Positions 6,502-25,817 of a DNA stretch of 36,099 nucleotides are shown piece after piece. The notes beneath the pieces were generated by a model, which saw nothing but the letters and a program-made list of their open reading frames with translations, was not told the DNA's origin and did no database searches. Source of the stretch: Candidatus Hydrogenedentota bacterium (lineage in GTDB: Bacteria; Hydrogenedentota; Hydrogenedentia; Hydrogenedentales; SLHB01); NCBI GenBank assembly GCA_016215105.1, contig JACRLJ010000137.1, positions 1-36,099 on the forward strand, read 5' to 3'. Positions within the stretch are counted from its first letter, which is position 1. Each line of letters starts with the position of its first letter. The position numbers and the translations under genes were made by a program.

Positions 6502-6520
6502 ACGGTGAGGATAACCTTGC

Positions 6521-6561
6521 TGTCCGAGATCTCCACGATCTACGCGTGGAGATCTCGGACA
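6521..6561. terminator. 17-bp perfect hairpin between convergent genes
   Basis: TGTCCGAGATCTCCACG pairs perfectly with CGTGGAGATCTCGGACA around a 7-nt loop (6538-6544). It lies in the 76-bp gap between the beta-helix gene (+) and the MCP operon (-), where a bidirectional terminator is expected. Neither side has a T-run, so it may act as an RNA 3'-end stabiliser or a factor-assisted terminator. Confidence 0.6.
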
Positions 6562-6577
6562 CGCCCAAGCCTCAAGT

Positions 6578-8614
6578 TCAGAACCCGGCCATATCATCGT
6601 CGTCCAGCGGTATCACATCCTGCGGCTTCACGACGCGCTGGCCAGTCTCCGTGTGCGCTAGCGCGGTGCTCCTATGCGCCGTCGAGGCCGTCTTGGCCAA
6701 CGCGCGGCGGCTGGATGACGGGGGCCGCTTGAGCCCGTCCGCCTTTGGCGTGCGGGAACCGCTCGATGCGGCGCCGCCGACCATGGCGACAAGTTCTTGC
6801 ACCATACGATCCATTTCAACCGCCTGCGCGCTAAGCTCCTCGGAGGCAGATGCGGATTCCTCGGAACTGGCGGCGTTGGCTTGGGTCACCTGGTCCATCT
6901 GCGCCACCGCGGTGCTGACCTGCTCGATTCCCTGCGCCTGCTCGTTGCTGGCGGAGGCGATTTCCGCTACCAAGGCGTTTACTTTTCGCGCGGCCTCGGC
7001 TATTTCCTTGAGTGACTCGCCGACTTCACGGCTAATCTGGACACCATTGTTCGCGTTGTTCACCGATTCTTCGATCATCGCGGAAGTGTTTTTTGCAGCC
7101 TCGGCCGAACGCTGGGCCAGGTTGCGGACTTCTTCGGCCACCACGGCAAACCCTTTGCCTGCATCACCGGCGCGCGCGGCTTCGACAGCGGCGTTCAGAG
7201 CCAGCAGGTTAGTCTGAAACGCGATCTCGTCAATGGTCTTGATGATCTTGGCCGTGGAGTCGGACGACTTCTTGATATCATCGATAGCGGCGCTCATCTT
7301 GGTCATTGCTTCGAAGCCCTTCTCCGCGCTCGCGTTGGCGGTTCCCGCGAGGTTCTTCGCTTGATTGGCGTTCTCCGCGTTCTGTTTTGTCATGGACGTC
7401 ATTTCTTCCAGCGAGGCGGAGGTCTCCTCGAGACTGGAGGCCTGTTGGCTCGCGCCTCCCGCCATGGCCTGGCTCGATTGCGCCACTTGGTTGGCGGCCG
7501 TAGCGGTTTGTTCCGCCCCGGATGTCAATCCCGCAATTAGCCGGCGGAGCGGACCGGTGATCGAGCGCGTGATGAAAAACGCCATCATGATACCGGCGAG
7601 CACACCGATACTCAGCCCAATGATCATGGTTGTGGACGCCGTGGAAAGGGATTTTGCTGCATCGTCCGCCGCCTGTTGCGTTTCCCTCGTCCCGAGTTCG
7701 GAGGTGTCCTTTGCCGCTTTGACCACTGTGTCAGCGGATTCGCTGCACTTCTTGTTGAGTTCCTCACGAGCAAACCAGTTGGTGAGGAAGCGTTCCATGC
7801 ACCCGAGGTATTCCTTACCGGCCACGCGGCATTCCTCGATTCTCTTCAAGTCCTCCTCCTGGGTGGTCATGGACTTTAACTCATCCAGCTTCTTGTTGAC
7901 TTGATCGAACAGTTTCTCGGCTTCTTGGAACAGTTTGGGGTCGCGCGTGGCGATTGCGTGCCATGTGCCGATGCGAACGCCGTTGCCCAAGTCAATGATG
8001 TCATTACAGATCACAGTCTTCCTGACACGTTCCTTGAGTTTGTCTTCGGTGATTGCGTTTTGAGCCGCCGTGCCCGCGACCGCCTGTGACTTCATCGCCT
8101 CGCCAATGTCTCTATCCAGCTTTTTCGCTTGGGCAGCGAGGTACTCGTCACATATCTTCATGTACTTATCCGCCGCAATAAGGGAGGCGGCCTTTTCCTT
8201 CTCCATCGCTTCGGTGGCAGCGACGGTGTCATTCAAGAGCTTCTCGTATTCGAGGGTATCGGTTTCGGCCACTTCGGCGTTCTTACTCAACTCTTCGAGA
8301 TTGAACTTTGCTCCATGCTCCTTGGCCTCCTTGAGGTACCCCTTGACCTCCCCAAGACCCTTTCTCCCTGCCTCGAGAAAGGAATCCTCCTCCGTGAACG
8401 TGTAGCCTCGTACCTCCAAGACAGTCTTCAACGCCGAGCGCTCGACGTTGGTCGCGACCGCGACCTCGGGTACCTTCTGCATGGAAAGAGCCAATGCGGT
8501 CGTCTTTACACCAAGCATGCTGAAGGTCGCCATCCCGCCCAATGCAACGGCGATCAGAATCAGTACGCTAAATCCCAAGGAAATCTTCGTTCCAAGCTTC
8601 ATGTTCTTGAACAT
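6578..8614 (-). CDS. Methyl-accepting chemotaxis protein with large helical sensor domain
   Basis: A 678-residue transmembrane chemoreceptor. TM1 is at about 11-32, an all-helical extracytoplasmic region at about 40-328, TM2 at about 329-348, then a HAMP-like linker ([16 protein letters not shown]) and the MCP signalling domain with the conserved tip [21 protein letters not shown]. The roughly 290-residue sensor is much longer than a simple four-helix bundle and resembles a helical bimodular (HBM-type) domain; ligand unknown. The ATG at 8614 is chosen because GGGAGGG ends 7 nt before it; ATGs at 8632 and 8620 are too close to or inside that site. The C-terminus ends [14 protein letters not shown], nearly the same as the neighbouring receptor, a probable docking tail for adaptation enzymes. 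It is the last gene of the cheW-MCP-cheW-MCP operon. Confidence 0.93.
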
Positions 8615-8674
8615 AGTCATACCCTCCCACATACAAGCAATTCCCGTAATTCATCCAGGCCTCTCCGAATGCGG

Positions 8675-9187
8675 TCAGGCCGTCTTCTCGAGTTGCTCAA
8701 TTTCCCCCGCGCCGAGGACCTTGGCGATGTCCACCAGGATCTTGACGCTGCCTTTGGTCTTGGCCATGCCGAGGATGTACTCGGTGTCAACATCCCCACC
8801 GAATTCAGGGGCGGCCTCGATTTCGGCGGCGGGAATGTCCAATACTTCGGACACCTCGTCCACGGTGAACCCGGTGGTCACAGCCCCGGCGCTGCCGGCT
8901 AACTGGACGACAATGATGCAGGTCTTCTCCGTGTCGTCCTTGCCCTCCATGCTGAACTTGAGCCGGAGATCCACCACCGGGATTACCTTGCCGCGCAGAT
9001 TGATCACGCCCCGCACGAACTCCGGCGTTCGAGGCACGTGCGTCACTGCGAGCATGCCAATGATTTCCTGCACATGGAGGATTTCGATTCCGTATTCTTC
9101 TGCTCCCAATCGAAACGTGAGGTACTTGCCCGCTCGGTCGGTCGTGGCCGCCAGACGGCGATCCATAGTCTGCGTGGAATTCGTCAT
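8675..9187 (-). CDS. cheW: CheW coupling protein (paralog paired with downstream MCP)
   Basis: A 170-residue CheW-like protein linking receptors to the CheA kinase. It has the SH3-like CheW core: KYLTFRLGAEEYGI, ILHVQEIIGM, then GVINLRGKVIPVVDLRLKF containing the conserved arginine used for receptor/CheA contact, and a C-terminal KILVDIAKVL. AAGGAG lies about 9 nt upstream of the ATG. It is very similar along its length to the other CheW of this operon (12080-12592), including the unusual N-terminal STQT-D-R leader, so the two arose by duplication together with their MCP partners. It lies 46 nt downstream of the carbonic anhydrase-MCP gene and 60 nt upstream of the second MCP. Confidence 0.95.
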   Translation of the reverse strand: MTNSTQTMDRRLAATTDRAGKYLTFRLGAEEYGIEILHVQEIIGMLAVTHVPRTPEFVRGVINLRGKVIPVVDLRLKFSMEGKDDTEKTCIIVVQLAGSAGAVTTGFTVDEVSEVLDIPAAEIEAAPEFGGDVDTEYILGMAKTKGSVKILVDIAKVLGAGEIEQLEKTA

Positions 9188-9232: not shown

Positions 9233-12022
9233 TCAGAACCCTTTCATATCGTCATCGTCCAAGGGTATTACGTCCTGCGGGTTTACGACACGGTGACCCT
9301 TGTCTGCGTGCGTCAGGGCAGAAGTCTTGTGCCCGATTGCAGCCGGCTTTGCCGATGCGCCGCCTCGGGCGGGGTGGCGCCGCTGGAGGCCACGTACCGG
9401 CGCGGCGTGCGAACCCGCCAAAGCGGCCCCGCCGACCATGGCCGCAAGTTCCTGCACCATCCGGTTCATTTCTTCGGCTTGGCCGCTGAGTTCTTCGGAG
9501 GCGGAGGCCGACTCCTCGGAACTGGCGGCGTTGGACTGGGTCACCTGATCCATTTGCGCCACAGCGGTGTTTATTTGTTCGATGCCCTGGGCTTGCTCGG
9601 TGCTGGCGGAGGCGATTTCGGCGATGAGCGCGTTCACCTTGCGAGCGGCGTCGGCGATCTCGTTGAGCGATTCACCCACCTCGCGGCTGATTTGCACGCC
9701 GTTCTCGGCGTTCTTCACCGACCCTTCGATCATGGCGGCGGTGTTCTTGGCTGCCTCGGCGGAACGCTGTGCGAGGTTGCGGACTTCCTCGGCGACCACG
9801 GCGAAGCCCTTGCCGGCGTCGCCGGCGCGCGCGGCCTCGACGGCGGCGTTCAGGGCGGGCAGGTTGGTTTGGAAGGCGATTTCGTCAATGGTCTTGATAA
9901 TCTTGGCGGTGGCGTCGGAGGACTTCTTGATGTCGTCAATGGCGGAGCTCATCTTGGCCATGGCCTGGGCGCCCTTGTCCGCGCTGGCATTGGCGGTCTC
10001 GGCTAGATTCTTGGCCTGAGCGGCATTGTCCGCGTTCTGCTTTGTCATCGACGTCATTTCTTCGAGTGACGCGGACGTTTCTTCCAGGCTTGACGCCTGT
10101 TCGCTCGCCCCCGAGGCCATGCTCTGGCTCGATTGCGACACTTGCCCCGCGGCGGCCGCAGTCTGTTCCGAACCCTGCCGAAGTCCCTCAATGACTCGAG
10201 TGAGCGGCCCGACAATGGATCGGGTCATCAGTACCGCAATTAAGAGACCGAGGATCGCGGAGACGACCGATACGATCATGAGTATGGCCGCCGTTCGTTG
10301 CTCAATCGCCTCACTTCGCTTCGCGGCGTCGTCGGTGCGCCTCTCCAATTCCTTGAGCAGATCCTCGAGTTCCACATCCAGCTTCTCTCCGGCTTCGTCG
10401 AGATGTTCCGCCAGGAAACGCGCCTGTTCATGCTTGTTCTCGTCAATCAGCGCGAACACGGCCTCGGCGATCTTGTCCAGGGACTGCCGGTGGGCGTCGA
10501 TAGCTCCGAACGCGGTCAGAACATGGGTTATTTCCTTCGCGTCTTCCTCGGTGGGGGCGGGTCTACTCTTGATCAGGGCGATGCCGTCCTCCACTTCCTT
10601 ATCAATCTTTTTCACGGATTCGTGGAACTGATCGACGCGTTTCTTGTATTGCTCTTTGGCCTCGGTCCCCGACTCTTCGCCGAAGCGTATTGCTTGTTCA
10701 AGGGTAGTAAACTGCGTGAGCACGCCGGTTTCGAGAGTGGAAATGGTGTCCGTCATCGGGATCAATTCCTCGGAAACCTTCTCCAACTCCAAACCGATAG
10801 TATTGGTGGCTATCACGGAATAAGCGCAGACAATCGCCAACACAATGACGATCGTGGCAAAGCCCGCGATCAGCTTCGCGCCCAGGGTCTTGGCCACGTG
10901 CGGCTGTCCGTGTTCGTCCTTCGTGCGCGCATAGGCGCCGATGAGAACTACGGAGACCAGGATCGTTATGGCAAGGATCAGGTACGTCAGCAAGTTTCCC
11001 CATCCCTCGCTCGTCACTTGTTTCTCAAACGTTTCCGCAGCCAATTCCTCAGCCTTGATCTTCTGAACGAGTGCGGCGGCCGCGGCCTTGTCCGCGGTGG
11101 CCTCGGCATGGGTCTCGCCTCCCCCTGCCGCGCCCTCATGCGCCGCGCTTGCCGCAGTCGTGGCGACCGATTCGGCGCCATGCGCAGGGGCCGCGTGCGC
11201 CACGGTTGGAGCGCCCGCTTCGGCTCCGTGCCCGCCTTCGGCCATGGCGTTCATGGCCCGCGAGGGATTCCCTTCGGCTTTGGCGAGAAGCTCCGCAGTC
11301 TTGGGTTCGGGCAGCCAGTTAATCTTGCCAGTTCCGACATCGTAGATGGCGCCGATCACCTTGACCTTCCCGCTCTTGGCCAATTCGCGAGCCGCGGGAC
11401 TCTTAAGATAGAGATCTTCGATTCCCTGCCAGACGTTTTCCTCAATGGCGAAGGGAATGAGCGCATCCCCCTCGACGCTGGGGTTGTTCGTGGTGGCGCG
11501 TTGTACCGCAGGTTGGATGTTGTCCACCAGGGGCGGAATATTCCGCTCGAGCGCATGCCCGGTACCGTGAAGAGCGTGAGCCACAGCGGTAACGGCGCCA
11601 CATTGGGTATGACCCAGCACCACCAGGACCGGGGTGTTGACGTGGGCGAGTCCGTACTCGATCGAGCCGATTTCATCCGTGTCGCAGACGTTTCCCGCCA
11701 CCCGTACGACGAAGATGTCCATGACGCCCGCATCGAACAGGCGCTCGATCGGCACGCGGGAATCCGAGCACCCGATGACCGTGGCGTACGCGTAGTCGGC
11801 TTGATTCTCGCGTCCGGCCTGGCCGACCCGTGCGCCGTCAGAGTGAGGGTTTGCCGCCTGACCGGAGACAAACCGCTGGTTGCCCTCCTTGAGCATTTTT
11901 ATGGCCTCGTCCGGAGTCGGTTTGGCGGGCGCCGCCGCCGCCGTCCAGGTGATGAAGCCGCTCAGACTCGCCACGCACACAGCGATAACGAGTCTTCTTA
12001 CTAACGCTGCCGTCGTGCTCAT
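9233..12022 (-). CDS. Beta-carbonic anhydrase fused to a methyl-accepting chemotaxis protein
   Basis: A 929-residue fusion. Residues 8-30 are a signal peptide or anchor; 35-240 are a beta-class carbonic anhydrase with the zinc ligands Cys85, His138 and Cys141 and the Asp87-Arg89 dyad (motifs GCSDSRVP and LGHTQCGAV); 250-325 is an Ala/Gly-rich linker with five histidines; TM2 is at about 346-364, a short cytoplasmic loop follows, TM3 is at 385-404, a helical extracytoplasmic domain at 405-577, TM4 at 578-599, then HAMP and the MCP signalling domain, ending [14 protein letters not shown]. The enzyme would face the periplasm and interconvert CO2 and bicarbonate; coupling to chemotaxis is inferred. 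The ATG at 12022 is set by GGAGGG 7 nt upstream and gives a clean signal sequence. Pro722 replaces the leucine found in the paralog at the signalling tip ([14 protein letters not shown]). Confidence 0.93.
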
Positions 12023-12079: not shown

Positions 12080-12592
12080 TCAGGCCGTCTTTTCGAGTTG
12101 AGCAATCTCCTCGGCGCCGAGGACCTTGGCGATGTCCACCAAGATCTTGACGGTGCCTTTCGACTTTGCCATGCCGAGGATGTAATCCGTATCGAGGCCC
12201 TGGCCGAAATTCGGAGCATCCTCGATATCGCTGGCGGGGATGTCCAATACTTCGCAGACCTCGTCAACGATGAACCCGGTGGTCACAGCGCCGGCGCTTC
12301 CGTTCAGTTGGACGACGATGATGCAGGTTTTTTCCGTGTCGCTCTTGGCGCCCATGTCAAACTTGAGACGGAGGTCGACCACCGGGATGACCTTGCCTCG
12401 GAGATTGATCACGCCCCTCACGAACTGAGGCGTTCGCGGCACGTGCGTCACCGCAAGCATGCCGATGATTTCTTGGACGTGAAGAATTTCGACCCCGTAT
12501 TCCTCGTCCCCCAGTCGAAACGTAAGGTACTTGCCCGCCCGGTTGGTCATAGCGGCCGGATGACGATCCAGAGTCTGCGTGGAACTCGCCAT
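12080..12592 (-). CDS. cheW: CheW coupling protein, first gene of the receptor operon
   Basis: A 170-residue CheW with the same core as its paralog at 8675-9187: KYLTFRLGDEEYGV, ILHVQEIIGM, GVINLRGKVIPVVDLRLKF and KILVDIAKVLG. It would link receptors, perhaps specifically the carbonic anhydrase-MCP encoded next, to CheA. AAGGAG lies about 11 nt before the ATG. It is the promoter-proximal gene: a perfect-consensus sigma70 promoter lies about 140 bp upstream, and the carbonic anhydrase-MCP begins 57 nt after its stop. The intergenic spacers around both cheW copies also look alike, supporting duplication of a whole cheW-MCP unit. Confidence 0.95.
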   Translation of the reverse strand: MASSTQTLDRHPAAMTNRAGKYLTFRLGDEEYGVEILHVQEIIGMLAVTHVPRTPQFVRGVINLRGKVIPVVDLRLKFDMGAKSDTEKTCIIVVQLNGSAGAVTTGFIVDEVCEVLDIPASDIEDAPNFGQGLDTDYILGMAKSKGTVKILVDIAKVLGAEEIAQLEKTA

Positions 12593-12732: not shown

Positions 12733-12761
12733 ATTATACGGTATAATCGGGTTTATGTCAA
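12733..12761 (-). promoter_or_regulatory. Perfect-consensus sigma70 promoter of the cheW-MCP operon
   Basis: On the minus strand, TTGACA (12761-12756), a 17-bp spacer, then TATAAT (12738-12733): both hexamers match consensus with the optimal spacing. Transcription would start near 12726, leaving a leader of about 135 nt before cheW. The -10 lies in one arm of an inverted repeat, ATTATAC-G-GTATAAT (12733-12747), which could be an operator. Confidence 0.8.
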
Positions 12762-12973: not shown

Positions 12974-14131
12974 CTATGGGTTGTCTTTGTTTTCGTTGCT
13001 GTGACGCCGGGGATCCTCAGGGGGCCGAGTCCAGGAGGTGAGAATCCAGCCCAGCCGCCAAAAGTAGTAAAGCATCGCGGCGGCGATGGCGGTATTGAAC
13101 AGCCAGAAGAAGGGATAGCCCCAATACCAAGTCAATTCGGGCATATTCCATGGCGAGATGTCGGTGTGAAAGTTCATACCGTAGACACCGGCGATGAACG
13201 TCAGCGGGATGAAGATGGTGGAAATGATGGTCAGCACCTTCATGATCTCGTTGAGCCGGTTTCCCGTACTCGAAAGGTAGATGTCCATCAGTCCCGAGGC
13301 GATTTCACGGTGGTTCTCGAGGAAGTCGATGATTTGCACCGTATGATCATAACAGTCGCGCAGATAGACGCGCGTGTCGTCGCTAATGAGCGGTGTGGCG
13401 TCGCGGAGCATGCCGTTGACGGCTTCGCGCAGCGGCCAAATAGCCCGTCGAATCGCCAGCGTATTCCGCTTGAGCACGTGTACTCTGGCGACACTCTGCT
13501 TGGTGGGCTTGAGAAGGATTTCATCCTCCAAGACTTCCAGTTCCTCTCCAAAGGCCTCCAGCGGGGGGAAGTAAGCGTCGACCACGGCGTCCAGGATGGC
13601 GTACGCCAGGTAGTCGGAGCCGCAGGCGCGCACTCGGCCCAGGCCTTTGCGTATGCGATCGCGAATGAAGTCCAGGCAATCGCCAGGCGTCTCTTGAAAG
13701 GTCAGGACAAACCGGTGCCCGAGAAATATGCTGAGCTGCTCGGTATCGAATCGGTTACCTGGCTGCAGCATGCGTGCCACGATGAAGATGTTATTATCGT
13801 AGTGTTCGACTTTTGGACGCTGGTGGACGCCCGTGACGTCTTCCAGGGCCAGTCCGTGGAGATCGAAGATGGCTCCGATACGATGGATGACCTCCGCGTC
13901 GCCCAAGCCGTCCACATTGACCCAGGTGACGGGCCAGGTCTCCAGGAATTGTTCTAGACACCCCAAGTCGGTCACTTCCTGTTCGGTGTACGCCGTTGGT
14001 CCAAACCCGAACACGCGAATGAGTGGCCGCGCTGCGTTGGGATCCACGGTAATCGCGCCCGGAACCGTACCCGGCTTGGCGCGGTATTCCCGTTTGGTCC
14101 TTCCGCGGTGGCGTCTATGCGAACCGTGCAT
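12974..14131 (-). CDS. corA: CorA-family divalent metal transporter
   Basis: A 385-residue CorA-type Mg2+/Co2+ channel. It has a long N-terminal cytoplasmic domain (alpha/beta part with VTWVNVDGLGD, then long helices), and near the C-terminus TM1 ending in the diagnostic YGMNF (GMN) motif, the loop and TM2 (FFWLFNTAIAAAMLYYFW), then a basic tail. The frame is open upstream to 14323, but the ATG at 14131 is preferred: GGAAGGAG precedes it by about 6 nt and the sequence upstream is not protein-like. Residues 1-25 are rich in Arg/His, which is common among bacterial relatives. It has its own promoter at 14193-14221, divergent from sixA. Confidence 0.93.
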   Translation of the reverse strand: MHGSHRRHRGRTKREYRAKPGTVPGAITVDPNAARPLIRVFGFGPTAYTEQEVTDLGCLEQFLETWPVTWVNVDGLGDAEVIHRIGAIFDLHGLALEDVTGVHQRPKVEHYDNNIFIVARMLQPGNRFDTEQLSIFLGHRFVLTFQETPGDCLDFIRDRIRKGLGRVRACGSDYLAYAILDAVVDAYFPPLEAFGEELEVLEDEILLKPTKQSVARVHVLKRNTLAIRRAIWPLREAVNGMLRDATPLISDDTRVYLRDCYDHTVQIIDFLENHREIASGLMDIYLSSTGNRLNEIMKVLTIISTIFIPLTFIAGVYGMNFHTDISPWNMPELTWYWGYPFFWLFNTAIAAAMLYYFWRLGWILTSWTRPPEDPRRHSNENKDNP

Positions 14132-14192
14132 GGCGGACTCCTTCCCAGCTTCTTGATATTCGGACTCGCGGTCAGAGAGCGAATGACGTGGA

Positions 14193-14221
14193 AATATACG
14201 GCGATTGCCTCCGTAACTCAA
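14193..14221 (-). promoter_or_regulatory. Sigma70-like promoter for corA
   Basis: On the minus strand, TTGAGT (14221-14216), a 17-bp spacer and TATATT (14198-14193), predicting a start near 14186 and a leader of about 55 nt before the corA ATG. Confidence 0.5.
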
Positions 14222-14289
14222 CCTTCCCGCGGGTTCGAGGGCGCCGTGCGGCCACATCGGCGGGTATGGTGACCTTGGGGGGCCAAGCA

Positions 14290-15254: not shown

Positions 15255-16785
<1,531 letters not shown>

Positions 16786-16789
<4 letters not shown>

Positions 16790-17169
16790 GATGCACCGCC
16801 CGTAATATCATCCACGACCTTGCGCACCATCTCCGGTGTGAAGGGCTTTCGGATGTAGGCCCGGACTCCCTTGGATTTCAACTCTTCCATACGAGTGGCG
16901 CTCCCTTCGGTGGACACCACGATAACGGGAATACAACTCAAGGTTGCGTCGGCGTTGAGCTTTTCGATCATTTCCACGCCCCCCATGATGGGCATGTTAA
17001 TGTCGGAAAAGATGAGATCCACCCATTGTTCCGCCAAGATGTCCAGCGCCTCTTTTCCATTCGCGGCCTGGTACAGGCAATTGACCGACACGCCGGCTAC
17101 TTCGAGCGTTTTCGCGATGACGGCGCGTACGGTTATCGAGTCATCCACGACTAAAATGTTCAGGCTCAT
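16786..17169 (-). CDS. cheY: CheY-like response regulator (first copy)
   Basis: A 127-residue single receiver domain. Asp9/Asp10 form the acidic pocket (LVVDDS), Asp56 is the phospho-acceptor (IFSDINMP), Ser87 is the switch position (VIVVSTEG) and Lys108 is invariant (IRKPF). It would receive phosphate from CheA and act on the output machinery or serve as a phosphate sink. AGGAAGG lies upstream of the ATG within the end of the HDOD gene. It overlaps the HDOD gene and cheX by 4 bp each, so HDOD-cheY-cheX-cheB are translationally coupled. Its pairing with a CheX suggests a dedicated regulator/phosphatase set, distinct from the cheY-cheX pair at 19966-20822. Confidence 0.95.
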
Positions 17170-18032
17170 TGTACTTTCCTTCCTGAGACCAAGGCGAATA
17201 CGTTTCGCAGTTCCTCCAATTCGACCAGCATGTGACTCACGACTTCTTCATTGACACGCGTGGTGATGTGGAGCCGGGTAACGCTTTCCTTCGACGGGCG
17301 ATAGTTGAGGCCGTCCTTGCCGGCGCCGATACCGCTCAGCGTGGCGAGGCTATCTGCGATGTGAATCAAGTCCAAGGCCAGAGTCTCGCCCTGATGCTGG
17401 TCGGGTTGGTGGTGCCAGCGGACAACGTCGACCACTGGCGCCGGTAGATTCCACTGCTCAAGAATAACCGCGCCAACTTCAGCGTGATTGATGCCGAGCA
17501 CTTGTTCTTCGGCGGTCTCGAACGAGACCTGATGCTCGAACGCCAGCGCAATAATGGGTTTGGCGTCGATTTCAATGAATGTTCCAAGGATGACTTTGCC
17601 AAGGTCATGCAGCAGGGCCGCCGTGAAGGTATACGGCGGTGGCCTCAGCCCAAGCGCTTGGGCGAGTTTCTCGGCGCCCAGCGCCACGGCGATAGAATGA
17701 TCCAACAGGTCGCCGGCCGAAAGATCGTAGCCTTTGAGCGGGGCGCCCGCCATAGGCGCGACCGACGCCGCCAAGGCGAGTTGGAAAACGCGATTGAGGC
17801 CCAGCCGGACAATGGCGTCCCTCACGGAGCCGATGCTGCGAGGGCCGGCGAAATAGGCCGAGTTTGACATGCGCAGGACGTTGGAGGTGAGCCCAGGATC
17901 ATGTTCGATCGCGCGCACCACGGAGCCAATTTCGACGTCGGGGTCTTCCAGCATGCGCACGATTTCCGTCGTGGCGACCGGAAGCCCCGGTACGGCGCGA
18001 ACCTGCGTGAGGATAGTCTCGCGAGTATTCAC
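17166..18032 (-). CDS. HDOD domain protein
   Basis: A 288-residue HDOD protein: an HD-related output domain that mostly fills residues 12-210 (VPGLPVATTEIVRML, LTSNVLRMSNSAYF, DAIVRLGLNRVFQLAL). An HD pair is retained (LLHDLGK, His142-Asp143), while other metal-binding positions typical of true phosphohydrolases are not obvious. HDOD proteins are usually regulatory scaffolds in signalling and motility; no reaction can be assigned. The start is GTG at 18032, overlapping the stop of cheD by 4 bp; the stop overlaps cheY by 4 bp. Its position inside a chemotaxis operon is known from other phyla and suggests a role in coupling the Che output to other signals. Confidence 0.9.
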   Translation of the reverse strand: MNTRETILTQVRAVPGLPVATTEIVRMLEDPDVEIGSVVRAIEHDPGLTSNVLRMSNSAYFAGPRSIGSVRDAIVRLGLNRVFQLALAASVAPMAGAPLKGYDLSAGDLLDHSIAVALGAEKLAQALGLRPPPYTFTAALLHDLGKVILGTFIEIDAKPIIALAFEHQVSFETAEEQVLGINHAEVGAVILEQWNLPAPVVDVVRWHHQPDQHQGETLALDLIHIADSLATLSGIGAGKDGLNYRPSKESVTRLHITTRVNEEVVSHMLVELEELRNVFALVSGRKVQ

Positions 18033-18505
18033 AGCTCGACCTCCTGTCCCCCCGACTTTATGGTGGTTCTACCGGTGTCCATATAGAGACTTAGCGTTCG
18101 GGCAATGGTGCCTCCGACCGATTCGGAGGCAATCAGGATGTTGTTTTTCCAGAGTATCTTGCGTAACACAGTATAGTTGCGCTCGCCAATCTTGAAAAGG
18201 CCCTTGTCGTCGAGCAGACCGGACGCGCCAGCCACCTTGGCGATGAGACGTTTGCGCTCGGCGCCCATGTCGAATACGGCTTGCAGCAAGCGGGTGGCGC
18301 CCGTGTCCACAAACATCTCGGGTTTGGCTTGAGCTTTTGCGGGGTCCGTCTTTGAGAGCGGCAGCATGCAGTGGATGAGCCCGCCTACCATGGAGACCGG
18401 GTCGTATAGGGCAAGGCCGACGCAAGACCCGAGCGAATAGGTGATCAGGATGTCCGACGCCTGGTTGGAGACTTTCATATCGGAAATGCCGACGACATGC
18501 TGCAC
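18029..18505 (-). CDS. cheD: CheD chemoreceptor glutamine deamidase (catalytic residues intact)
   Basis: A 158-residue CheD. The catalytic set matches the characterised family: Thr22, Cys28 (YSLGSCVGLALYD) and His45 (LIHCMLP). It converts receptor glutamines to glutamates and can bind CheC/CheX-type phosphatases. The start is GTG at 18505 with AAAGGAG 7 nt upstream, and the stop overlaps the HDOD gene by 4 bp. The operon has a second CheD (19434-19922) in which the cysteine is lost, so this copy is probably the working deamidase. Confidence 0.94.
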   Translation of the reverse strand: MQHVVGISDMKVSNQASDILITYSLGSCVGLALYDPVSMVGGLIHCMLPLSKTDPAKAQAKPEMFVDTGATRLLQAVFDMGAERKRLIAKVAGASGLLDDKGLFKIGERNYTVLRKILWKNNILIASESVGGTIARTLSLYMDTGRTTIKSGGQEVEL

Positions 18506-18601
18506 GGCTAGGCTCCTTTCGCAACGGGAGGGTCCGGCGGCGGCGATAGGTTCTTGTTAATGCTGCGCCTCATCAGGCTAATGACGCCTTTCTCATTCGA
18601 G

Positions 18602-19408
18602 TCAACCGCGTTTGGTGTAGATTGCCGGTCGAACGGTTTGGAAATCGCTCACGATACCGGTGAGGCTTTCCGCGTGACCGACGAACAGGTATCCGCCGGG
18701 CTTGAGCAGCCGGTAAACTTCATTGAGTAGCCGAGTGCGGACCTCGTTGTCGAAGTAGATCATGACATTGCGGCAGAACACACAGTCCAGCGGGCCGCGC
18801 ATGGGAAACGGCGGAGTCGAAAGATTCAGCCGCCGGAACGTTAGCAGATTCCTCAGGGAATTCTTGGCCGAGTATACGGTGCGATCTCCGTGCCGGATGG
18901 CGTCGAAATAGCGGTCGAGCATGGGCCGCGGTATGCCGGCAACCTTTTCCTGGTCATAGTTTCCGGCGACACAGTGTTCGAGCACCCGCGTCGAGATATC
19001 CGTTGCCAGGATCTTGAAGTCCAGATTGCGTCGGTTGCCGGAATCGAGCAGAGTCATGGCGATGGTGTAGGGCTCCTCTCCGGTGGAACTCGCCGCGGAC
19101 CAGATACGGAACCGGTTTTGGCCTTGCGATTTCCATCCGGTGATGAGCGACCGCAGGAAGTCGAAATGAGCGGACTCCCGGAAGAAACTGGTGACATTGG
19201 TCGAGATGGCGTCGAGCAGTTGGACGATTTCTTCTCCCTTCGTGTCTTCCGTGACCACGCTCAGATAGTCTTTGAATTCCGAAATGCCGAGCGCGCGCAT
19301 GCGTTTCCCGACTCGGGCGGAAACCAACGCCTCCTTGTTTTCACCAAGGGTGATTCCGCTGCGTTCGTATACGAGCGATCTAAATGCGTCAAAGACCCTA
19401 CGATCCAC
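18602..19408 (-). CDS. cheR: CheR chemoreceptor methyltransferase
   Basis: 268 residues: an N-terminal helical domain (FDAFRSLVYERSGITL, later NVTSFFRE at 71-78) followed by the SAM-binding methyltransferase fold (IWSAASSTGEEPYT at 102-115, ATDIST at 135-140, FCRNVMIYFD near 215). It methylates MCP glutamates using S-adenosylmethionine. The start is GTG at 19408 with GGAG 10 nt upstream, 25 nt after the cheD2 stop. A 96-nt gap separates it from cheD1 downstream, the largest break in this half of the operon. The acidic tail shared by both MCPs in the window may be its docking site. Confidence 0.96.
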   Translation of the reverse strand: MDRRVFDAFRSLVYERSGITLGENKEALVSARVGKRMRALGISEFKDYLSVVTEDTKGEEIVQLLDAISTNVTSFFRESAHFDFLRSLITGWKSQGQNRFRIWSAASSTGEEPYTIAMTLLDSGNRRNLDFKILATDISTRVLEHCVAGNYDQEKVAGIPRPMLDRYFDAIRHGDRTVYSAKNSLRNLLTFRRLNLSTPPFPMRGPLDCVFCRNVMIYFDNEVRTRLLNEVYRLLKPGGYLFVGHAESLTGIVSDFQTVRPAIYTKRG

Positions 19409-19433
19409 TATCTGCTCTCCGTGACCAAATCAA

Positions 19434-19922
19434 TCACAACCGATGCCAATCCGTGTCCCGGATCTTATGCACCTTGAGCACCGCCAGTTGGCCGGTGCCG
19501 ATGTCAAAAAGTATCTTTCTTCCCAAGTGTCCTCCGATGTCTTCGGAGAGTATCGCGATTCCTTTTCGGGAAAGGACTTCGCGGGCCACCCGCGCATTGT
19601 CGTCGCCGATGTGAGGCGGCGGCTCGTTTTCGGGGAATCCGCCGCCGACGATCTGGGCAACAACGTCGTTACGGCGGCATCCGGAATCGTCCATGATCTG
19701 GACGAGCGCGGCGGTGGCGACGTTTCCGTACCGGGGCGTTGCTTTCGACGGTTCCAGGATGATTGGGGCCACAAAGTGGCTTACACCTCCATACTTTAGG
19801 GCTCTATCCCACAGGCAGACAGCGACACCACTCCCCACTACCGTGCGCACGGCGGCGGCGCGCTGGCTGAAGTAGATATACCCTGGATCCAGGTAGTATT
19901 GGTTTCCGTCAGTCAAATTCAT
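19434..19922 (-). CDS. cheD: CheD paralog with catalytic cysteine replaced by glycine
   Basis: A 162-residue CheD-fold protein. The threonine (Thr27) and histidine (His49 in GGVSHFVAP) of the active site remain, but the motif that should read GSC is GSG (Gly32, codon GGT; TGT would be cysteine). A cysteine at position 36 is in the following strand and is unlikely to substitute. Deamidase activity is therefore probably lost; the protein may still bind CheX/CheC phosphatases or receptors. The ATG at 19922 lacks a clear ribosome site and follows cheY2 by 43 nt. The reading frame is intact and typical for the operon, so it looks like a maintained, altered paralog and not a decayed gene. Confidence 0.88.
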   Translation of the reverse strand: MNLTDGNQYYLDPGYIYFSQRAAAVRTVVGSGVAVCLWDRALKYGGVSHFVAPIILEPSKATPRYGNVATAALVQIMDDSGCRRNDVVAQIVGGGFPENEPPPHIGDDNARVAREVLSRKGIAILSEDIGGHLGRKILFDIGTGQLAVLKVHKIRDTDWHRL

Positions 19923-19965
19923 GCAATTTGCCGTGAGACAACCGAGTGACTTCTTGTTCGAGGAT

Positions 19966-20337
19966 CTACTGGCCGCTTACTTTGGACAAAACGTCCTGAA
20001 TCTTGGTGACAATCGTTGCGGGTTCAAACGGCTTGATGATGTAGTTGTTGGCCCCGGCCTTCAGCGCGTCAATCACGCGCGTCTTCTCCGCTTCCGTGGT
20101 CACCATGATGATTGGGACAGTCTTGCCTTTGGCCCGAATCTCGCGTACCGCGTCAATTCCAAGCATGTTGGGCATGTTCCAGTCCATGAGGACGAGTCCA
20201 AATTCGTCGTTCATAACCGCTTCGACGGCTTCTTTGCCGTCGGCGGCTTGGGCGACGTCGGTGATGTTCGCTCGTGCGAGCGCGCCAATCAGTACTTTGC
20301 GCATCACAGCGGAATCGTCCACCACGAGAGCCTTCAT
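19966..20337 (-). CDS. cheY: CheY-like response regulator (second copy)
   Basis: A 123-residue single receiver domain: Asp7/Asp8 (LVVDDS), phospho-acceptor Asp52 (LVLMDWNMP), Thr80 (IIMVTTEA) and Lys102 (IIKPFEP). The sequence is closer to standard CheY than the first copy. The start overlaps the cheX2 stop by 4 bp (ATGA, 20334-20337). It likely forms a kinase-output pair with that CheX. Which of the two CheY proteins controls the motor or another output cannot be told from sequence. Confidence 0.95.
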   Translation of the reverse strand: MKALVVDDSAVMRKVLIGALARANITDVAQAADGKEAVEAVMNDEFGLVLMDWNMPNMLGIDAVREIRAKGKTVPIIMVTTEAEKTRVIDALKAGANNYIIKPFEPATIVTKIQDVLSKVSGQ

Positions 20338-20822
20338 ACGGTAACTCCTTTCACTCTGTTGAGTTCAAATGTGACGCGCAAATTGAATGTTCCGAGATCG
20401 CTGGTGAACGGCACATCGAGCCAAGTCGCTTTCGAAGGATGGTTGACACTGAAATCGCTCCCGCGAATCACGGTGGGCAGACTCAGTTCAATGGGCGTGG
20501 ATACGAAACTGGCGAACTTTGCCTTGGATGAACCGGCCACCATATTCACCAATTCGGCTAGACCATCGTACACCGTTTCGTCAACGATGTGAAGTTCCGT
20601 TCCAAGCATGCGCCCTACCATAGCCAGAGCAGTTTGGGTGGGAAAGGAAAGCGCCACCATGCCTCGGGCCTCTCCGCTCAAACCAATGATAGCGACGATG
20701 TCGCGCGTGTTAAGTCCACCGTTTGCCAATCCAACTCCACATCGCGTGGCTTTGGACGAAAGCATCGTGTCGAAAAGGTCACAAACACTCTGTATGAACG
20801 GATTTATATACTCGACTTTCAC
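20334..20822 (-). CDS. cheX: CheX CheY-P phosphatase (second copy)
   Basis: A 162-residue CheX. With the GTG at 20822 as start it begins MKVEYINPFIQSV, the usual CheX opening; GGGAG lies 11 nt upstream. An earlier GTG at 20840 would add six residues and has no ribosome site. The catalytic pattern is complete: Asp86, Glu90, Asn93 (DGLAELVNMVAGSSK) and a proline 22 residues later in SLPTVIRG. CheX dephosphorylates CheY-P. It ends with a 4-bp overlap with cheY2. A GC-rich hairpin (20842-20858) lies just upstream, between it and the DUF342 gene. Confidence 0.92.
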   Translation of the reverse strand: MKVEYINPFIQSVCDLFDTMLSSKATRCGVGLANGGLNTRDIVAIIGLSGEARGMVALSFPTQTALAMVGRMLGTELHIVDETVYDGLAELVNMVAGSSKAKFASFVSTPIELSLPTVIRGSDFSVNHPSKATWLDVPFTSDLGTFNLRVTFELNRVKGVTV

Positions 20823-20841
20823 TCGTAGGTCTACTCCCACT

Positions 20842-20858
20842 GGCCGCGCGGCGCGGCC
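20842..20858. other. Small GC-rich hairpin upstream of cheX2
   Basis: GGCCGCG-CGG-CGCGGCC: a perfect 7-bp GC stem with a 3-nt loop in the short gap between the DUF342 gene and cheX2. It could attenuate, process or pause the operon transcript; there is no T-run. Confidence 0.35.
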
Positions 20859-20887
20859 ACGATTGGCTTAATTCATCATTCCGGCGC

Positions 20888-22276
20888 CTAATCAGCCGAA
20901 GAGAGTTTGACGGCCCCGTGGTCCGCCGTCGCCTGCATCGGCCCCAACAGGCTGTCTTCGACTGTCATCGTTGCGGCGCCGATGGTAAGAACACAATTTG
21001 GAAAGACTTTTTCATTGATGCGTATGCTTGGCTTGACTCTGGCGGCGAACTTGCGCTGAAGCTCCTCGATTTCGTTGCTCAAGCCACTTATAGTCTTCTC
21101 GATCTCGAGCCCCTTTTCAATCAGTTGCTCGACGGCGTGCCGCTTGTGTTCAGGCAATCCGTCTTGACGGCTGATCAGCGGATCGATCGCGTGATGGATC
21201 TGGCCGAGACGCTCCTCGAGTTCAGCTACTCGTTGCTCCCGAATTGCTATCTCGTGGGCGGTGTGGGTGTCACCGGTCGCCGTCAAATGGGTAGGCATGA
21301 GGCTTTCGCTGCCGGCCTGCCCGAGCACGATTTCGTCGACGGCGGTCGTCTGTCCGCCAACGATACGGCCTCGAGGAGTAATGACCGAGCCGTGACTGAC
21401 CACCTCGGAATGCACAATCTCCCGATCCACCTCGATGTTCCCGCCGGCTTCGATCCGCGCTTCGAGCACGTAGTGGGCGTGGATGGTCCCGGCGGCCCGA
21501 ACATGATTGTCGGGCCCGTTCGTTATTCCACCGTGAACAATCAAATCACCACCGGATTCGACATTCGCTCCTTCTATCACCCCATGTACCTCGATGTCAC
21601 CGGTCGCGGTTACGTGCGAACCGCTGCAAATGTCTTCTTTGATCAATAGCGCCCCGGGGTGATCGATGTCACCGGTTTCCAGGCCGACGCTCCCCGTGAT
21701 GCTGTACACGTCGTCGACCGATAGCGTATTGTCACGCCAGCGGATGCGTCCGTTGGCGGTGGCGTAAAAGATCGAGTCGTTCGTGTCAAGACGGACATTC
21801 TTACCGGCGGCAATCCGCGGCGCCTTTCCTTTGGCGGCAAGGAGTCTGCGTCCGTGCACATCCACGCCTTCCACCCCGTCGATAGGGGAGACGAGGCGCG
21901 CCAAGGGCTGTCCTTCGTGAACGCCGAGCTGGGCCAAAGGGTGTCGATAGTCGATTGCGCCCGTACGCTCGTCGATGGCGAACCCTTCTGCGAAGAACTC
22001 ACCCAACCATTCGATTCTTCCGTGTACGGGCTGGGTGGCCTGACGTCCTTCGCATAGTACGAGGCCGGTTAGAGGCTTACCAGAGGCCATGGCGATGCGG
22101 ATACGCATCTCCACAATGTCGTGTGCGGGCCGGTTGACAATCGCGAGGCGTTCCATCTCCTGCAGTATGAATTCTACTGCGGCGTACAGCCCTTCGCTGG
22201 AAACGGAACCGTCAACAATCACGGCCATATGATCGGCGGTGACCCGTACTGTTAGTTCGGATAGCGCGTTCGTCAT
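20888..22276 (-). CDS. DUF342 / FapA-like (flagellar assembly protein A family) polymer-like protein
   Basis: A 462-residue DUF342 protein. After an N-terminal alpha/beta part there is a beta-helix-like segment (about 165-320) of short repeats such as ATGDIEVHG, ESGGDLIVHG, AAGTIHAHY and EAGGNIEVD, then a coiled coil (about 345-410, EQRVAELEERLGQI to SNEIEELQRKF) and a small C-terminal beta domain. The family occurs near flagellar and chemotaxis genes; FapA in Vibrio affects flagellar assembly through polar signalling proteins. The exact role here is unknown. It is encoded between cheW and cheX on the same strand, with a weak GGAATGAG ribosome site upstream of the ATG. Confidence 0.85.
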   Translation of the reverse strand: MTNALSELTVRVTADHMAVIVDGSVSSEGLYAAVEFILQEMERLAIVNRPAHDIVEMRIRIAMASGKPLTGLVLCEGRQATQPVHGRIEWLGEFFAEGFAIDERTGAIDYRHPLAQLGVHEGQPLARLVSPIDGVEGVDVHGRRLLAAKGKAPRIAAGKNVRLDTNDSIFYATANGRIRWRDNTLSVDDVYSITGSVGLETGDIDHPGALLIKEDICSGSHVTATGDIEVHGVIEGANVESGGDLIVHGGITNGPDNHVRAAGTIHAHYVLEARIEAGGNIEVDREIVHSEVVSHGSVITPRGRIVGGQTTAVDEIVLGQAGSESLMPTHLTATGDTHTAHEIAIREQRVAELEERLGQIHHAIDPLISRQDGLPEHKRHAVEQLIEKGLEIEKTISGLSNEIEELQRKFAARVKPSIRINEKVFPNCVLTIGAATMTVEDSLLGPMQATADHGAVKLSSAD

Positions 22277-22368
22277 GACTCATTCCATGCGGCGCCGAGG
22301 CGCCCGGGGACACGGACCGTAATGGTGTCCCGAGGATTCCATGTCTGATTGGCGCGTGGCATTGGCCG

Positions 22369-22890
22369 CTACTGCGCCAATTGGCTTGCCAGGGCCAATT
22401 CGCCGCTGCCCAGAATCTTATCGGCGTTGAGGAGCATGATAACCTTCTGGCCCACTTTGCCCATCGCCATGATGAAATCCGTGTCAAGGCTTGAGCCAAA
22501 TGCCGGTGGCGCCTCGATCTGATCGGCGTTGATGTTCAGAACTTCCGATACTTGATCCACGATCAATCCGGTGGTCAACACGGACCCTGCATGGGCGATC
22601 TGCACCACGATAATGCAGGTGCGCTCCGTATCTTGTTCGGCGCTCATTCCGAATTTCAGCCGCAAGTCAATGACCGGAATGACTTTTCCGCGCAGGTTGA
22701 TGACTCCCCGGACATAGTCGGGAGTCTTGGGAACGCGCGTGACGTTCATCATACCGATGATTTCTTGCACCTTTAGGATACCGAGGCCATAGACTTCGTT
22801 ATCCAATTCAAACGTCAGATACTTTCCCGCCAATGTGTCCAGCGCGGCGCTGGCGGCGGTATTCCTGGCTTCGGTTGCTAGGTCCTGCAT
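22369..22890 (-). CDS. cheW: CheW coupling protein of the cheA operon
   Basis: A 173-residue CheW with the same core as the receptor-operon copies (KYLTFELDNEVYGL, ILKVQEIIGM, GVINLRGKVIPVIDLRLKF) but more diverged, especially in the N-terminal leader and the C-terminal VIMLLNADKIL. The ATG at 22890 is chosen: GGAGG lies 9 nt upstream, whereas the open frame begins with a TTG two codons earlier. It is the second gene of the operon, 68 nt after the cheA stop, and is probably the stoichiometric partner of this CheA. Confidence 0.95.
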   Translation of the reverse strand: MQDLATEARNTAASAALDTLAGKYLTFELDNEVYGLGILKVQEIIGMMNVTRVPKTPDYVRGVINLRGKVIPVIDLRLKFGMSAEQDTERTCIIVVQIAHAGSVLTTGLIVDQVSEVLNINADQIEAPPAFGSSLDTDFIMAMGKVGQKVIMLLNADKILGSGELALASQLAQ

Positions 22891-22958
22891 ATGCAATGTC
22901 CTCCACGGGCCCCAGGAGCCCTCTTCGGTTCAGCCGAAACTACTGGCGTCACGTGCGG

Positions 22959-25817
22959 TCAGTTGTTCCCTGCCACCGTTTCCGAAACTTCCGCATTCGC
23001 GAGTCGTACCAGACCACCCACATCGAGGATCAGTCCCACGGAACCATCGGGCATTACGGCGCCGCCGGAGACACCCGGGATTCCTCGCATCAGCTCTCCG
23101 AGCGGCTTGATTACAATTTGTTGTTGTCCCAATAGTTCATCGAGCACGATTCCGACCTGGTGACCTTCGTCCTCGACGACGACCACAACAGCTTCCGTGG
23201 GATCTGACATCGCGTCCGCGATATCGTAAAGCCGATTCAGCCGGAACAGAGGGATGAGTTTCTCCTGGAGGCGCAGCATTTCGCCGCGCTTCACGACCGT
23301 TGTGATATCGCCCGCCGCCGGCCGGATCGACCGGATAATGGAGAGCGTGGGTATAATGTAACGTTCTCTTCCGGCGCGGACAACCATGCCGTCAATGATC
23401 GCGAGGGTAAGTGGCAGGCGGATGCTGAAGCGGCTGCCTTGGCCGGGATGAGACGTAATCTCGATTTGGCCGCGAAGCGATTCGATATTCCGTTTCACGA
23501 CGTCCATTCCGACGCCGCGCCCGGATACGTCCGTGATCTTCTTAGCGGTCGAGAATCCAGGCTCGAAGACCAAGTTGTAGATCTCCCGATCAGTCAGTTG
23601 GTCGGCGTCCCGAATGAGGCCGCGTTCGATTCCCTTGGCGACGATGGCGTCCCGGTTGAGGCCGCGTCCGTCATCTTCGATCTCGATGTAGATGGCGCCA
23701 CCCTTGTGGAACGCGCGCAATTCAACGCGCCCCGTTGCAGGCTTGCCCGCCGCGACGCGTTCGTCGGTGGTGGATTCCAGGCCATGATCGACAGAGTTGC
23801 GAACCATGTGTACGAGCGGATCGCTGATCTTGTCTACGACGGTCTTGTCCAGTTCCGTGTCTTCGCCGGTCATGACAAACTCGACCTGCTTGCCCGATTT
23901 CTTCGCCAAGTCGCGCACGAGGCGGGCCATCTTCTGGAATGTGGTCCGCACCGGTACCATGCGCAGCGACGTTCCCATCTCCTGCAATTCGCGGGTAATC
24001 TTGTCGAGTTGACCAAGCTGCCGCGAAAGCTGCGGGGTAATGCCGTCCTGCAGTTCCTCCGATTGACATACCATGGATTCGGCGATAACCAGTTCCCCGA
24101 TCGTATCCAATAGCCGGTCGAGGCGGTCCGCGTCCACTTTGACGGATTCTTTGACCTGCACCGCCTGGCCGGCTTGCGCCGGGGCTGCGCTTTGGCTGCG
24201 CAGAGCAAGCGCCACGTCGCGCGCTGCGGCTTGTCCGCTACGAACCAGGAGTTCGCCAAGTCTTGGGCTTTCCGGATTCTCCTGCGCTTCGAGGGCCTCT
24301 CCCACGTCCGAGGGGCTTACGCTGCCCATCGCAACCAATACTTCGCCGACCTTGTGAGGAGGGCCGGGTTGTTGACTGACCTCTACTGCGGCTTGCACCT
24401 GACTGCGCGAAACGCGGCTTTCTTCTACCAGAATATCACCGATTCTCTTTTTCGGAGCCGGATGGCGCTGGGCCTCCAACGCTTCCGATACGGAATCCTT
24501 GGACGCGGCGCCGGTCTCGACGAGGATTTCACCAAGACGCTTTCCGGGGTGGGGCGCGACGGCGGGTGTTCTCGAAGCAACGGAAGACAGATCGCCGGAC
24601 GCTGCGGCCTGGATTGCGGCAACAAGTGCAGGCAGCGAGGGCTCGCCTTGGAGATCATTCCCCGAGCCAAGCGCGTCGGCCACGTGACCGATGAGGCGTT
24701 TGAGGGCGTCCACGGCGTCAAATGTAACGTCTACCACGGGGCCAACAAGATCCAGTTCCCCTTTGCGCACCTTGTCCAGCAAGTTCTCGGCTTCGTGCGC
24801 GCACGATTTGATGTCATCCAGCGCCAGGAATCCCGCAACGCCCTTTATCGTATGGAACGCGCGGAAGACCGCGTTAATGGCTTCTTCGTTCTTGGGATCG
24901 GTCTCGAGGGTTAGTAGATTGACGTCGGCCGCTTCGAGATGCTCTCGGGCCTCCGCGACGAAATCGCCCATAAGGCCCAAGTCCCCTTCCAGGGGCTTCG
25001 ACGCTGGAAGCTGTTCCGGGGCCGGAGGCGATTGCCGGAGCGCCTCGGGTTGGGCTCCGGCCTGCAGCCGCTCAATAACCGTCTCCACGGGCCCGGGACT
25101 GGCCTCCATACCCGAGTACGACGCGAAGGAGTGGGCGAGCCAATCCTTAAGCGCCAGGAGCGCATCCACCGGTGGGGTGGCCCCGGAACTTACGGCATCC
25201 TCGGCGATATGGCATGAGCGCTCAACATCGCCAAGTCCGAGCATGGCGGATTCGCCTTTGACCGAGTGCAAGACACGGCGTAACGCATCGATGTTTGTCG
25301 CGTCGTCCGGCCGTTTTTCGATCGTGAGCGCCAGTTCCTCAAATTCTTCCAGTACGCTCCCTTGACGCGACAGAAAGTCCGCGAAAATCGCGGTGTCAAT
25401 GTGGGCGGGCAACGTGGTCGGATGGGTAATTCTTCCGGTAGGCTGACCGCCGGGACTTTGCGGCGCCTCCGCGGACGCGCCGGTCTCCGGGGCACCGATG
25501 CCCAGTCCGCCGGGGAAGGTCACCTCAGCGGCGTCACGGCCGTCGCGAATCAGGCCCTGAAGCGCGGCGACTACCTCGGAAACGGTTTCAAGGGAACGCT
25601 TTGGATCTTTGCTCTCCTCGAGAATCACCGTTTCGATAATACCCGCGGTGCTCTTGGCGGCCCTGGCGACGACTTCCTGCCCGGTTTCCTGTCCCCAGTC
25701 GCCAATCGCGGTGAAGCCGGTGTGGAGATCGGCTAAGGCGGTCATATCGTTCGGTTCGCAGAAAACCAAGGATTCCGCGATTCGTTCCAGTGTTTGGGCG
25801 ATAGTATTCTCGGACAT
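22959..25817 (-). CDS. cheA: CheA histidine kinase with two HPt domains and four MshEN-like repeats
   Basis: 952 residues. An N-terminal helical segment (1-95) is followed by HPt1 (about 140-250; phospho-acceptor His184 in VLHSVKGE), HPt2 (about 280-385; His322 in AFHTIKGV), then four repeats of about 31 residues (427-542) starting RLGEILVETG, RIGDILVEES, KVGEVLVAMG and RLGELLVRSG and ending in EALEAQ-like helices. Dimerisation (P3, about 555-620), the ATPase (P4: HMVRNSVDHGLE at 670-681, DDGRGL, GRGVGMDVV) and the CheW-like P5 (805-945) follow. The repeats occupy the usual P2 position and match half-sites of MshEN/T2SSE-N domains, which bind c-di-GMP elsewhere. The ATG follows GGTGAG. It is the first gene of the 12-gene operon. 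Confidence 0.96.
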   Translation of the reverse strand: MSENTIAQTLERIAESLVFCEPNDMTALADLHTGFTAIGDWGQETGQEVVARAAKSTAGIIETVILEESKDPKRSLETVSEVVAALQGLIRDGRDAAEVTFPGGLGIGAPETGASAEAPQSPGGQPTGRITHPTTLPAHIDTAIFADFLSRQGSVLEEFEELALTIEKRPDDATNIDALRRVLHSVKGESAMLGLGDVERSCHIAEDAVSSGATPPVDALLALKDWLAHSFASYSGMEASPGPVETVIERLQAGAQPEALRQSPPAPEQLPASKPLEGDLGLMGDFVAEAREHLEAADVNLLTLETDPKNEEAINAVFRAFHTIKGVAGFLALDDIKSCAHEAENLLDKVRKGELDLVGPVVDVTFDAVDALKRLIGHVADALGSGNDLQGEPSLPALVAAIQAAASGDLSSVASRTPAVAPHPGKRLGEILVETGAASKDSVSEALEAQRHPAPKKRIGDILVEESRVSRSQVQAAVEVSQQPGPPHKVGEVLVAMGSVSPSDVGEALEAQENPESPRLGELLVRSGQAAARDVALALRSQSAAPAQAGQAVQVKESVKVDADRLDRLLDTIGELVIAESMVCQSEELQDGITPQLSRQLGQLDKITRELQEMGTSLRMVPVRTTFQKMARLVRDLAKKSGKQVEFVMTGEDTELDKTVVDKISDPLVHMVRNSVDHGLESTTDERVAAGKPATGRVELRAFHKGGAIYIEIEDDGRGLNRDAIVAKGIERGLIRDADQLTDREIYNLVFEPGFSTAKKITDVSGRGVGMDVVKRNIESLRGQIEITSHPGQGSRFSIRLPLTLAIIDGMVVRAGRERYIIPTLSIIRSIRPAAGDITTVVKRGEMLRLQEKLIPLFRLNRLYDIADAMSDPTEAVVVVVEDEGHQVGIVLDELLGQQQIVIKPLGELMRGIPGVSGGAVMPDGSVGLILDVGGLVRLANAEVSETVAGNN

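Follow-up and report, generated by a model that had tools for sequence, protein, structure and literature searches.

Chemoreceptors carrying their own putative extracytoplasmic beta-carbonic anhydrase recur across bacterial phyla and are candidate sensors of CO2, bicarbonate or pH

Results

A carbonic anhydrase and a chemoreceptor in one reading frame

The window, by which we mean the whole 36,099-nucleotide stretch of Candidatus Hydrogenedentota DNA that was analysed, carries on its minus strand a gene that joins a beta-carbonic anhydrase (CA) to an MCP chemoreceptor. The gene, hereafter CA-MCP, and its parts are as follows.

complement(9233..12022), minus strand: whole CA-MCP gene, ATG at 12022, 929 codons
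11921..12022, minus strand: signal peptide, about aa 1-34 (hydropathy peak at aa 4-31, then AAAAPA)
11258..11920, minus strand: beta-carbonic anhydrase domain, aa 35-255 (Pfam; model match to Rv3588c)
11321-11785, minus strand: Pfam core of Pro_CA, aa 80-234 (E 3.8e-36)
11756..11770, minus strand: Cys85, Asp87 and Arg89, zinc ligand and Asp-Arg dyad (CSDSR, invariant in alignment A2)
11600..11611, minus strand: zinc ligands His138 and Cys141 (HTQC, both invariant in alignment A2)
11009..11257, minus strand: Ala/Gly/His-containing linker, aa 256-338 (pLDDT <50 at aa 253-308)
10928..11002, minus strand: TM2, about aa 341-365 (hydropathy; homologous to the receptor at locus L081)
10814..10888, minus strand: TM3, about aa 379-403, after a short cytoplasmic loop (hydropathy)
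10292..10813, minus strand: second periplasmic domain, a four-helix bundle, about aa 404-577 (structure model)
10223..10291, minus strand: TM4, about aa 578-600 (hydropathy)
9539..10009, minus strand: MCP signalling domain, aa 672-828 (Pfam MCPsignal, E 2.2e-46)
9857..9859, minus strand: proline codon CCC, aa 722, at the MCP hairpin tip (Leu in the genome's eight other MCPs)

Translation gives a frame of 929 codons free of internal stops, and the coordinates and the intact frame reported in the initial annotation are right, as is its assignment of a signal sequence, a beta-carbonic anhydrase and an MCP to one protein, with Pfam matches to both Pro_CA and MCPsignal. The Pro_CA match scores 125.1 bits against a cut-off of 25.7 and the MCPsignal match 158.3 bits against 34.6, both so far above their cut-offs that chance matches are ruled out; the hairpin tip of the signalling domain is conserved apart from one leucine-to-proline change. 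Hydropathy peaks at aa 4-31 (the signal peptide), 340-368, 376-412 and 573-611 give the order signal peptide, CA, linker, TM2, short loop, TM3, four-helix sensor, TM4 and MCP signalling domain. TM2 and TM3 thus form one short cytoplasmic hairpin, and TM3 and TM4 flank the second periplasmic domain, which is modelled as four helices.

Overall the structure model reaches moderate quality (mean pLDDT 62.7, built from eight sequences), and part of the active-site region is of low confidence (pLDDT <50 at aa 86-113). No PDB fold match for the helical sensor appeared among the matches listed, all of which are carbonic anhydrases, and the sensor scores 18.5 bits against 4HB_MCP_1 (E 0.0016), under the cut-off of 27, and so is not assigned to 4HB_MCP by Pfam. 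No Pfam match to HAMP, a domain that many but not all MCPs have, was found in this receptor or in those at L031 and L032. With its unique tip proline and without a Pfam HAMP match, the window's own receptor could be impaired, judging from its sequence.

Chemotaxis genes surround the receptor

The remaining chemosensory features of the window lie on the same strand.

12080..12592, minus strand: CheW directly upstream of CA-MCP (Pfam CheW, E 2.1e-38; gap 57 bp)
12733..12761, minus strand: sigma-70-like promoter TTGACA-N17-TATAAT upstream of that CheW (12/12 consensus matches)
8675..9187, minus strand: second CheW, downstream of CA-MCP (Pfam, E 2.8e-37)
6578..8632, minus strand: second MCP, without a CA domain (Pfam MCPsignal, E 8.5e-47)
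15255..25817, minus strand: nearby chemosensory gene cluster (Pfam for CheA, both CheX and HDOD; the others named from translations)
15255-16322, minus strand: CheB
16319-16789, minus strand: CheX-like
16786-17169, minus strand: CheY
17166-18032, minus strand: HDOD
18029-18505, minus strand: CheD
18602-19408, minus strand: CheR
19434-19922, minus strand: CheD
20334-20840, minus strand: CheX
22369-22896, minus strand: CheW
22959-25817, minus strand: CheA

The receptor thus has its own CheW under a consensus promoter, as had been proposed, and CheW genes adjoin it while a CheA gene lies in the window. Over 300 nt the two cheW genes share 81% DNA identity and the two MCP signalling regions 78%, values that suggest a tandem duplication of a CheW/MCP pair. 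The window's genome encodes nine MCPs and has a FliG match, so the organism is probably flagellated.

Chemotaxis genes also neighbour CA-MCPs in other genomes. The gene orders are CheA-CheW-CA-MCP-CheR at L073, MCP-CheR-CheB-CA-MCP at L067, CA-MCP-CheR-CheD at L063 and CA-MCP-CheR at L081; CheW lies downstream of CA-MCP at L066 and adjoins it at L032 (read from sequence), CA-MCP, CheW and MCP occur together at L142, and MCP, CA-MCP and CheA occur together at L135. Elsewhere, for example at L103, L109 and L117, the neighbours are unrelated.

Other features of these loci deserve mention. A CorA-like Mg2+ transporter gene lies upstream of the receptor operon (window 12974-14323, minus strand). 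The Hydrogenedentota MCPs ending at window positions 9233 and 6578, at 7368 in L031 and at 10406 and 7435 in L032 share a common tail that contains (I/L)-P-L-D-(D/E) and ends in Phe; it may serve for docking, by analogy with CheR/CheB pentapeptides. Upstream of CA-MCP in four Zixiibacteriota loci (L059 488-2017, L066 78-1637, L063 1376-2821 and L081 1287-2822) lies a family of exported proteins that we read as porin-like; its pairs are 66-91% identical, it gave no convincing Pfam match, and some members have a His-rich stretch.

Fused receptors occur in at least six phyla

The taxonomic spread of the Pro_CA plus MCPsignal architecture was looked up in genomes, which yielded at least 21 further receptors. 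With the window included, at least 22 receptors carry CA and MCP in one frame (the window, L031, L032, L046, L056, L058, L059, L063, L066, L067, L068, L073, L080, L081, L103, L109, L117, L123, L135, L141, L142 and L143), and two more (L120 and L147) end at contig ends; these counts are minima, as some of the long frames among the matches listed were taken up. The carriers belong to at least six named phyla: Hydrogenedentota, Sumerlaeota, Thermodesulfobacteriota, Zixiibacteriota, Planctomycetota and Calditrichota. A scan of 84,980 species genomes with three CA domains returned 80 loci, many of them free CAs and many CA-MCPs. Among 68 genomes of Hydrogenedentota, two besides the window's own (G021 and G007) have CA and MCP in one frame, and 7 of 132 Zixiibacteriota genomes have a CA-MCP, the two contig-cut ones counted. 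One Desulfobacula genome holds two such receptors (L058 and L135), and six proteins carry two tandem CA domains, both with complete motifs (L056, L080, L103, L142 and the contig-cut L120 and L147).

Some candidates were set aside. The long PF00484 frames of L144 and L145 (Planctomycetota) were rejected as CA-MCPs because the CA match follows a long unrelated open frame, as was L149, where the CA sits behind a long open frame; L146 and L150 gave no catalytic-motif match with the motif script. L038 and L148 encode two-CA proteins of 508 and 512 aa without a receptor part. The 538-aa CA frame of L083 (Planctomycetota) starts like the L073 CA-MCP and turns unrelated in a repetitive linker, possibly through a frameshift.

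Searches of the open-access literature brought up no paper that describes a chemoreceptor with a CA, in agreement with the initial annotation, which knew of no described receptor of this kind; annotation databases may list such architectures uncommented. In one paper a beta-carbonic anhydrase gene appears merely as a regulated target (PMC7691447).

This recurrence bears on whether the fusion could be an assembly chimera or a pseudogene, a reading to which we give almost no credence. The window's sequence is one assembly alone and has one odd Leu-to-Pro change, but the 21 other fused receptors come from independent assemblies, and the L081 receptor (Zixiibacteriota) is 49% identical to the window's through TM2, the loop and TM3 and 66% identical in the CA, which rules out a chance join. 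The frame is also intact and preceded by a promoter, and GC3 is even along the gene (0.71-0.77). Independent homologues and homology through the junction thus exclude an assembly chimera as the source of the architecture.

The carbonic anhydrase domains retain their catalytic residues

Cys85, Asp87, Arg89, His138 and Cys141 are all present in the window's CA with exactly the numbering first given, and the motifs C-x-D-x-R and H-x2-C are kept in 30 of 30 fused CA domains. The fused domains were extracted by catalytic motif from proteins found by tblastn or profile, a procedure by which a degenerate second tandem copy could be missed; degeneracy by sequence is ruled out for all 30. The nearest solved structure is M. 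tuberculosis Rv3588c (2A5V/1YM3; 2A5V E 3.7e-42 in a profile search), which the model of the window's CA also matches. Free periplasmic homologues reach 75% identity to fused CA domains.

Conservation is concentrated in the enzyme. Among the N-terminal-type receptors aligned in A2, identity to the window is 52-74% in the CA and 18-41% in the sensor, and dN/dS of the fused CAs is 0.13 for L063/L081 and 0.09 for L067/L068, the two pairs with usable dS (the others are saturated). Three positions ahead of the first zinc Cys, nearly all fused CAs have Val or Ile and none has Trp; a Trp there belongs to the H. influenzae-type allosteric bicarbonate site, so that feature is absent here. In the N-terminal type, His makes up 3.9-13.8% of the linkers between CA and TM2, compared with 1.9-4.1% of the whole proteins (6.0% of the window's linker against 2.0% of the next part of the protein); this richness in His might, speculatively, serve zinc supply or a pH response.

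In the window's genome the CA-MCP carries the sole beta-CA found, and no alpha-CA match was obtained there. The CA-MCP is likewise the sole beta-CA match in six other genomes, while several genomes have extra free CAs.

Two layouts, and joining that probably happened more than once

In the commoner layout the CA stands in front of a complete MCP. In the second, found in G007 and G021, it lies inside the periplasmic domain of a different MCP, between the third and fourth predicted helices, where the model places both connections at low confidence (aa 176-199 and 416-435); the insertion loop would sit, according to the model, at the membrane-distal end. The CA-bearing MCP of G007 (L032, 7614-10406) adjoins an insert-free tandem paralogue (5378-7435), with a CheW before both. 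The sensor of the window's second MCP is of this kind too and likewise lacks an insert. Acquisition of a CA by a duplicated MCP is therefore the probable course of events.

In a quick tree built from 133 CA domains, the label switches between fused and free 13 times, with at least three changes forced by well-supported branches, numbers that are provisional. CAs of the insertion type are separated there from the window's CA, which is nearest to fused and free CAs of Desulfobacterales. A single origin of the joining is not supported by this tree, and the sequences indicate that CA was joined to MCP more than once.

Discussion

The initial annotation saw one receptor; the architecture is widespread, has two layouts and appears to have been joined repeatedly. 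Sequence comparison establishes the architecture itself, the intact catalytic residues, the recurrence in six phyla and the chemotaxis genes beside many of the loci. We lean slightly towards regarding the window protein as a member of a widespread class of transmembrane chemoreceptors, undescribed in the open-access literature, in which an extracytoplasmic beta-CA would be active and the sensor would read bicarbonate or protons. The sensing of CO2, bicarbonate or pH put forward in the initial annotation agrees with how the receptor is built and with how strongly its CA is conserved, and we consider it fairly probable, from these sequence features, that the class responds to one of these signals.

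The mechanism we propose is that of a tethered enzyme, and we advance this particular mechanism tentatively, with some doubt. The CA, predicted from its sequence to be exported and active in the periplasm, would work next to the receptor array, turning CO2 into HCO3- and H+ and back. The neighbouring helical sensor would then read the bicarbonate or proton level so produced, or else a state of the CA that follows this level, and its signal would modulate CheA through the MCP domain. Uncatalysed hydration of CO2 takes tens of seconds and chemotaxis compares concentrations over seconds, so the CO2/HCO3-/pH balance, if left uncatalysed, would not keep up with a swimming cell. The enzyme may keep the periplasmic CO2/HCO3-/H+ balance fast enough to be read while swimming, and speed is a plausible reason for its presence. 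Several points count against the proposal. CA-MCP sensors come in two or more length classes and are highly divergent, and accordingly show no common bicarbonate pocket; the tip proline and the missing Pfam HAMP match of the window's receptor, and the low model confidence in part of its active-site region, also weigh against it; and small molecules cross a periplasm by diffusion in milliseconds, so a fusion is not needed for local supply and a separate periplasmic CA would serve.

The main rival to a tethered enzyme is a direct read-out of the CA's state, in which the CA is itself the sensory domain and passes a conformation or oligomeric state that depends on zinc, CO2, bicarbonate or pH to the receptor helices, with catalysis incidental. 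We regard this as unlikely. Beta-carbonic anhydrases switch between states, and of the extracytoplasmic parts of these receptors the CA alone is strongly conserved. Rv3588c, moreover, is listed as a tetramer (2A5V) and in another entry (1YM3). The N-terminal class, as modelled, nevertheless favours a tethered enzyme over a rigid mechanical link, because its linker is partly predicted to be disordered (about 55 residues) and the CA stands outside the TM3-sensor-TM4 unit, before a separate TM hairpin. The Trp of the H. influenzae-type site is also missing. Direct mechanical coupling is conceivable in the insertion class, where the CA sits between sensor helices 3 and 4 and movement could be transmitted, and this rival stays open there, but even in that class's model both connections are of low confidence.

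Two further readings are less favoured. The CA might be a housekeeping periplasmic enzyme attached for anchoring or co-expression, with the MCP sensing something unrelated, as would suit the seven genomes, the window's included, where the CA-MCP is the sole beta-CA found (in the window's without an alpha-CA match), the close free periplasmic homologues and the variable sensors. It is harder to reconcile with MCPs, of all proteins, having been the partner repeatedly, in some cases with the CA placed within a sensor, and with the genome that has two CA-MCPs, the tandem-CA receptors and the extra free CAs of several genomes, and we find it quite unlikely. Alternatively, the substrate of the CA-fold domain might be a different one, for example COS or CS2, and the receptor would then follow sulfur gases. 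The profile matches do include a carbonyl sulfide hydrolase with the beta-CA fold (3VQJ, E 4.7e-6), and several carriers are Desulfobacterales, but the match to true CAs is much stronger (2A5V, E 3.7e-42), the Asp-Arg dyad is kept in domains of full length, and Planctomycetota and Hydrogenedentota are among the carriers; we hold this reading to be highly improbable.

The repeated joining points to a real functional link between CA and MCP. It may be that CO2 receptors arose repeatedly in bacteria through fusion of an active CA with a chemoreceptor, with catalysis turning a gas that is hard to detect into an ion signal that equilibrates fast, or with the enzyme's state being the signal; we judge this to be evenly balanced. 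To our knowledge, receptor-level sensing of CO2 or inorganic carbon in bacteria is poorly known, and an enzyme built into a receptor is a concrete, testable candidate for it that would widen chemoreceptor sensing beyond ligand binding to include catalysis. The family contains natural controls: tandem paralogues with and without a CA insert, receptors with one CA and with two, and free CAs up to 75% identical.

Set against known systems, CA-MCPs share the TM-sensor-TM arrangement and the MCP signalling domain with MCPs that have helical sensors (4HB_MCP and HBM); the G021 receptor exceeds the HBM cut-off (PF16591, 32.9 against 29.8 bits) and the L063 sensor that of 4HB_MCP_1 (27.7 against 27). 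Whereas 4HB_MCP and HBM sensors bind ligands, CA-MCPs add a complete enzyme domain before or inside the sensor, with its catalytic residues intact. Free periplasmic beta-CAs, in Desulfobacterales and others, and M. tuberculosis Rv3588c have a similar CA domain with no receptor attached. SulP transporters fused to beta-CA likewise join the enzyme to a membrane protein, one for which the product of the CA would be of use; these fusions serve transport, whereas CA-MCPs would signal. In fungi, Can2 works with adenylyl cyclase, so that CA chemistry feeds CO2/bicarbonate signalling with a eukaryotic cyclase output. Can2, a beta-CA titled 'CO2-sensing' in its PDB entry (2W3N/2W3Q), is a separate protein and offers a functional analogy only. 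Among chemoreceptors, bicarbonate and acid, along with arginine, are reported signals of H. pylori TlpA (PMC8406319), which has a dCache sensor without an enzyme domain, unlike the CA-MCPs.
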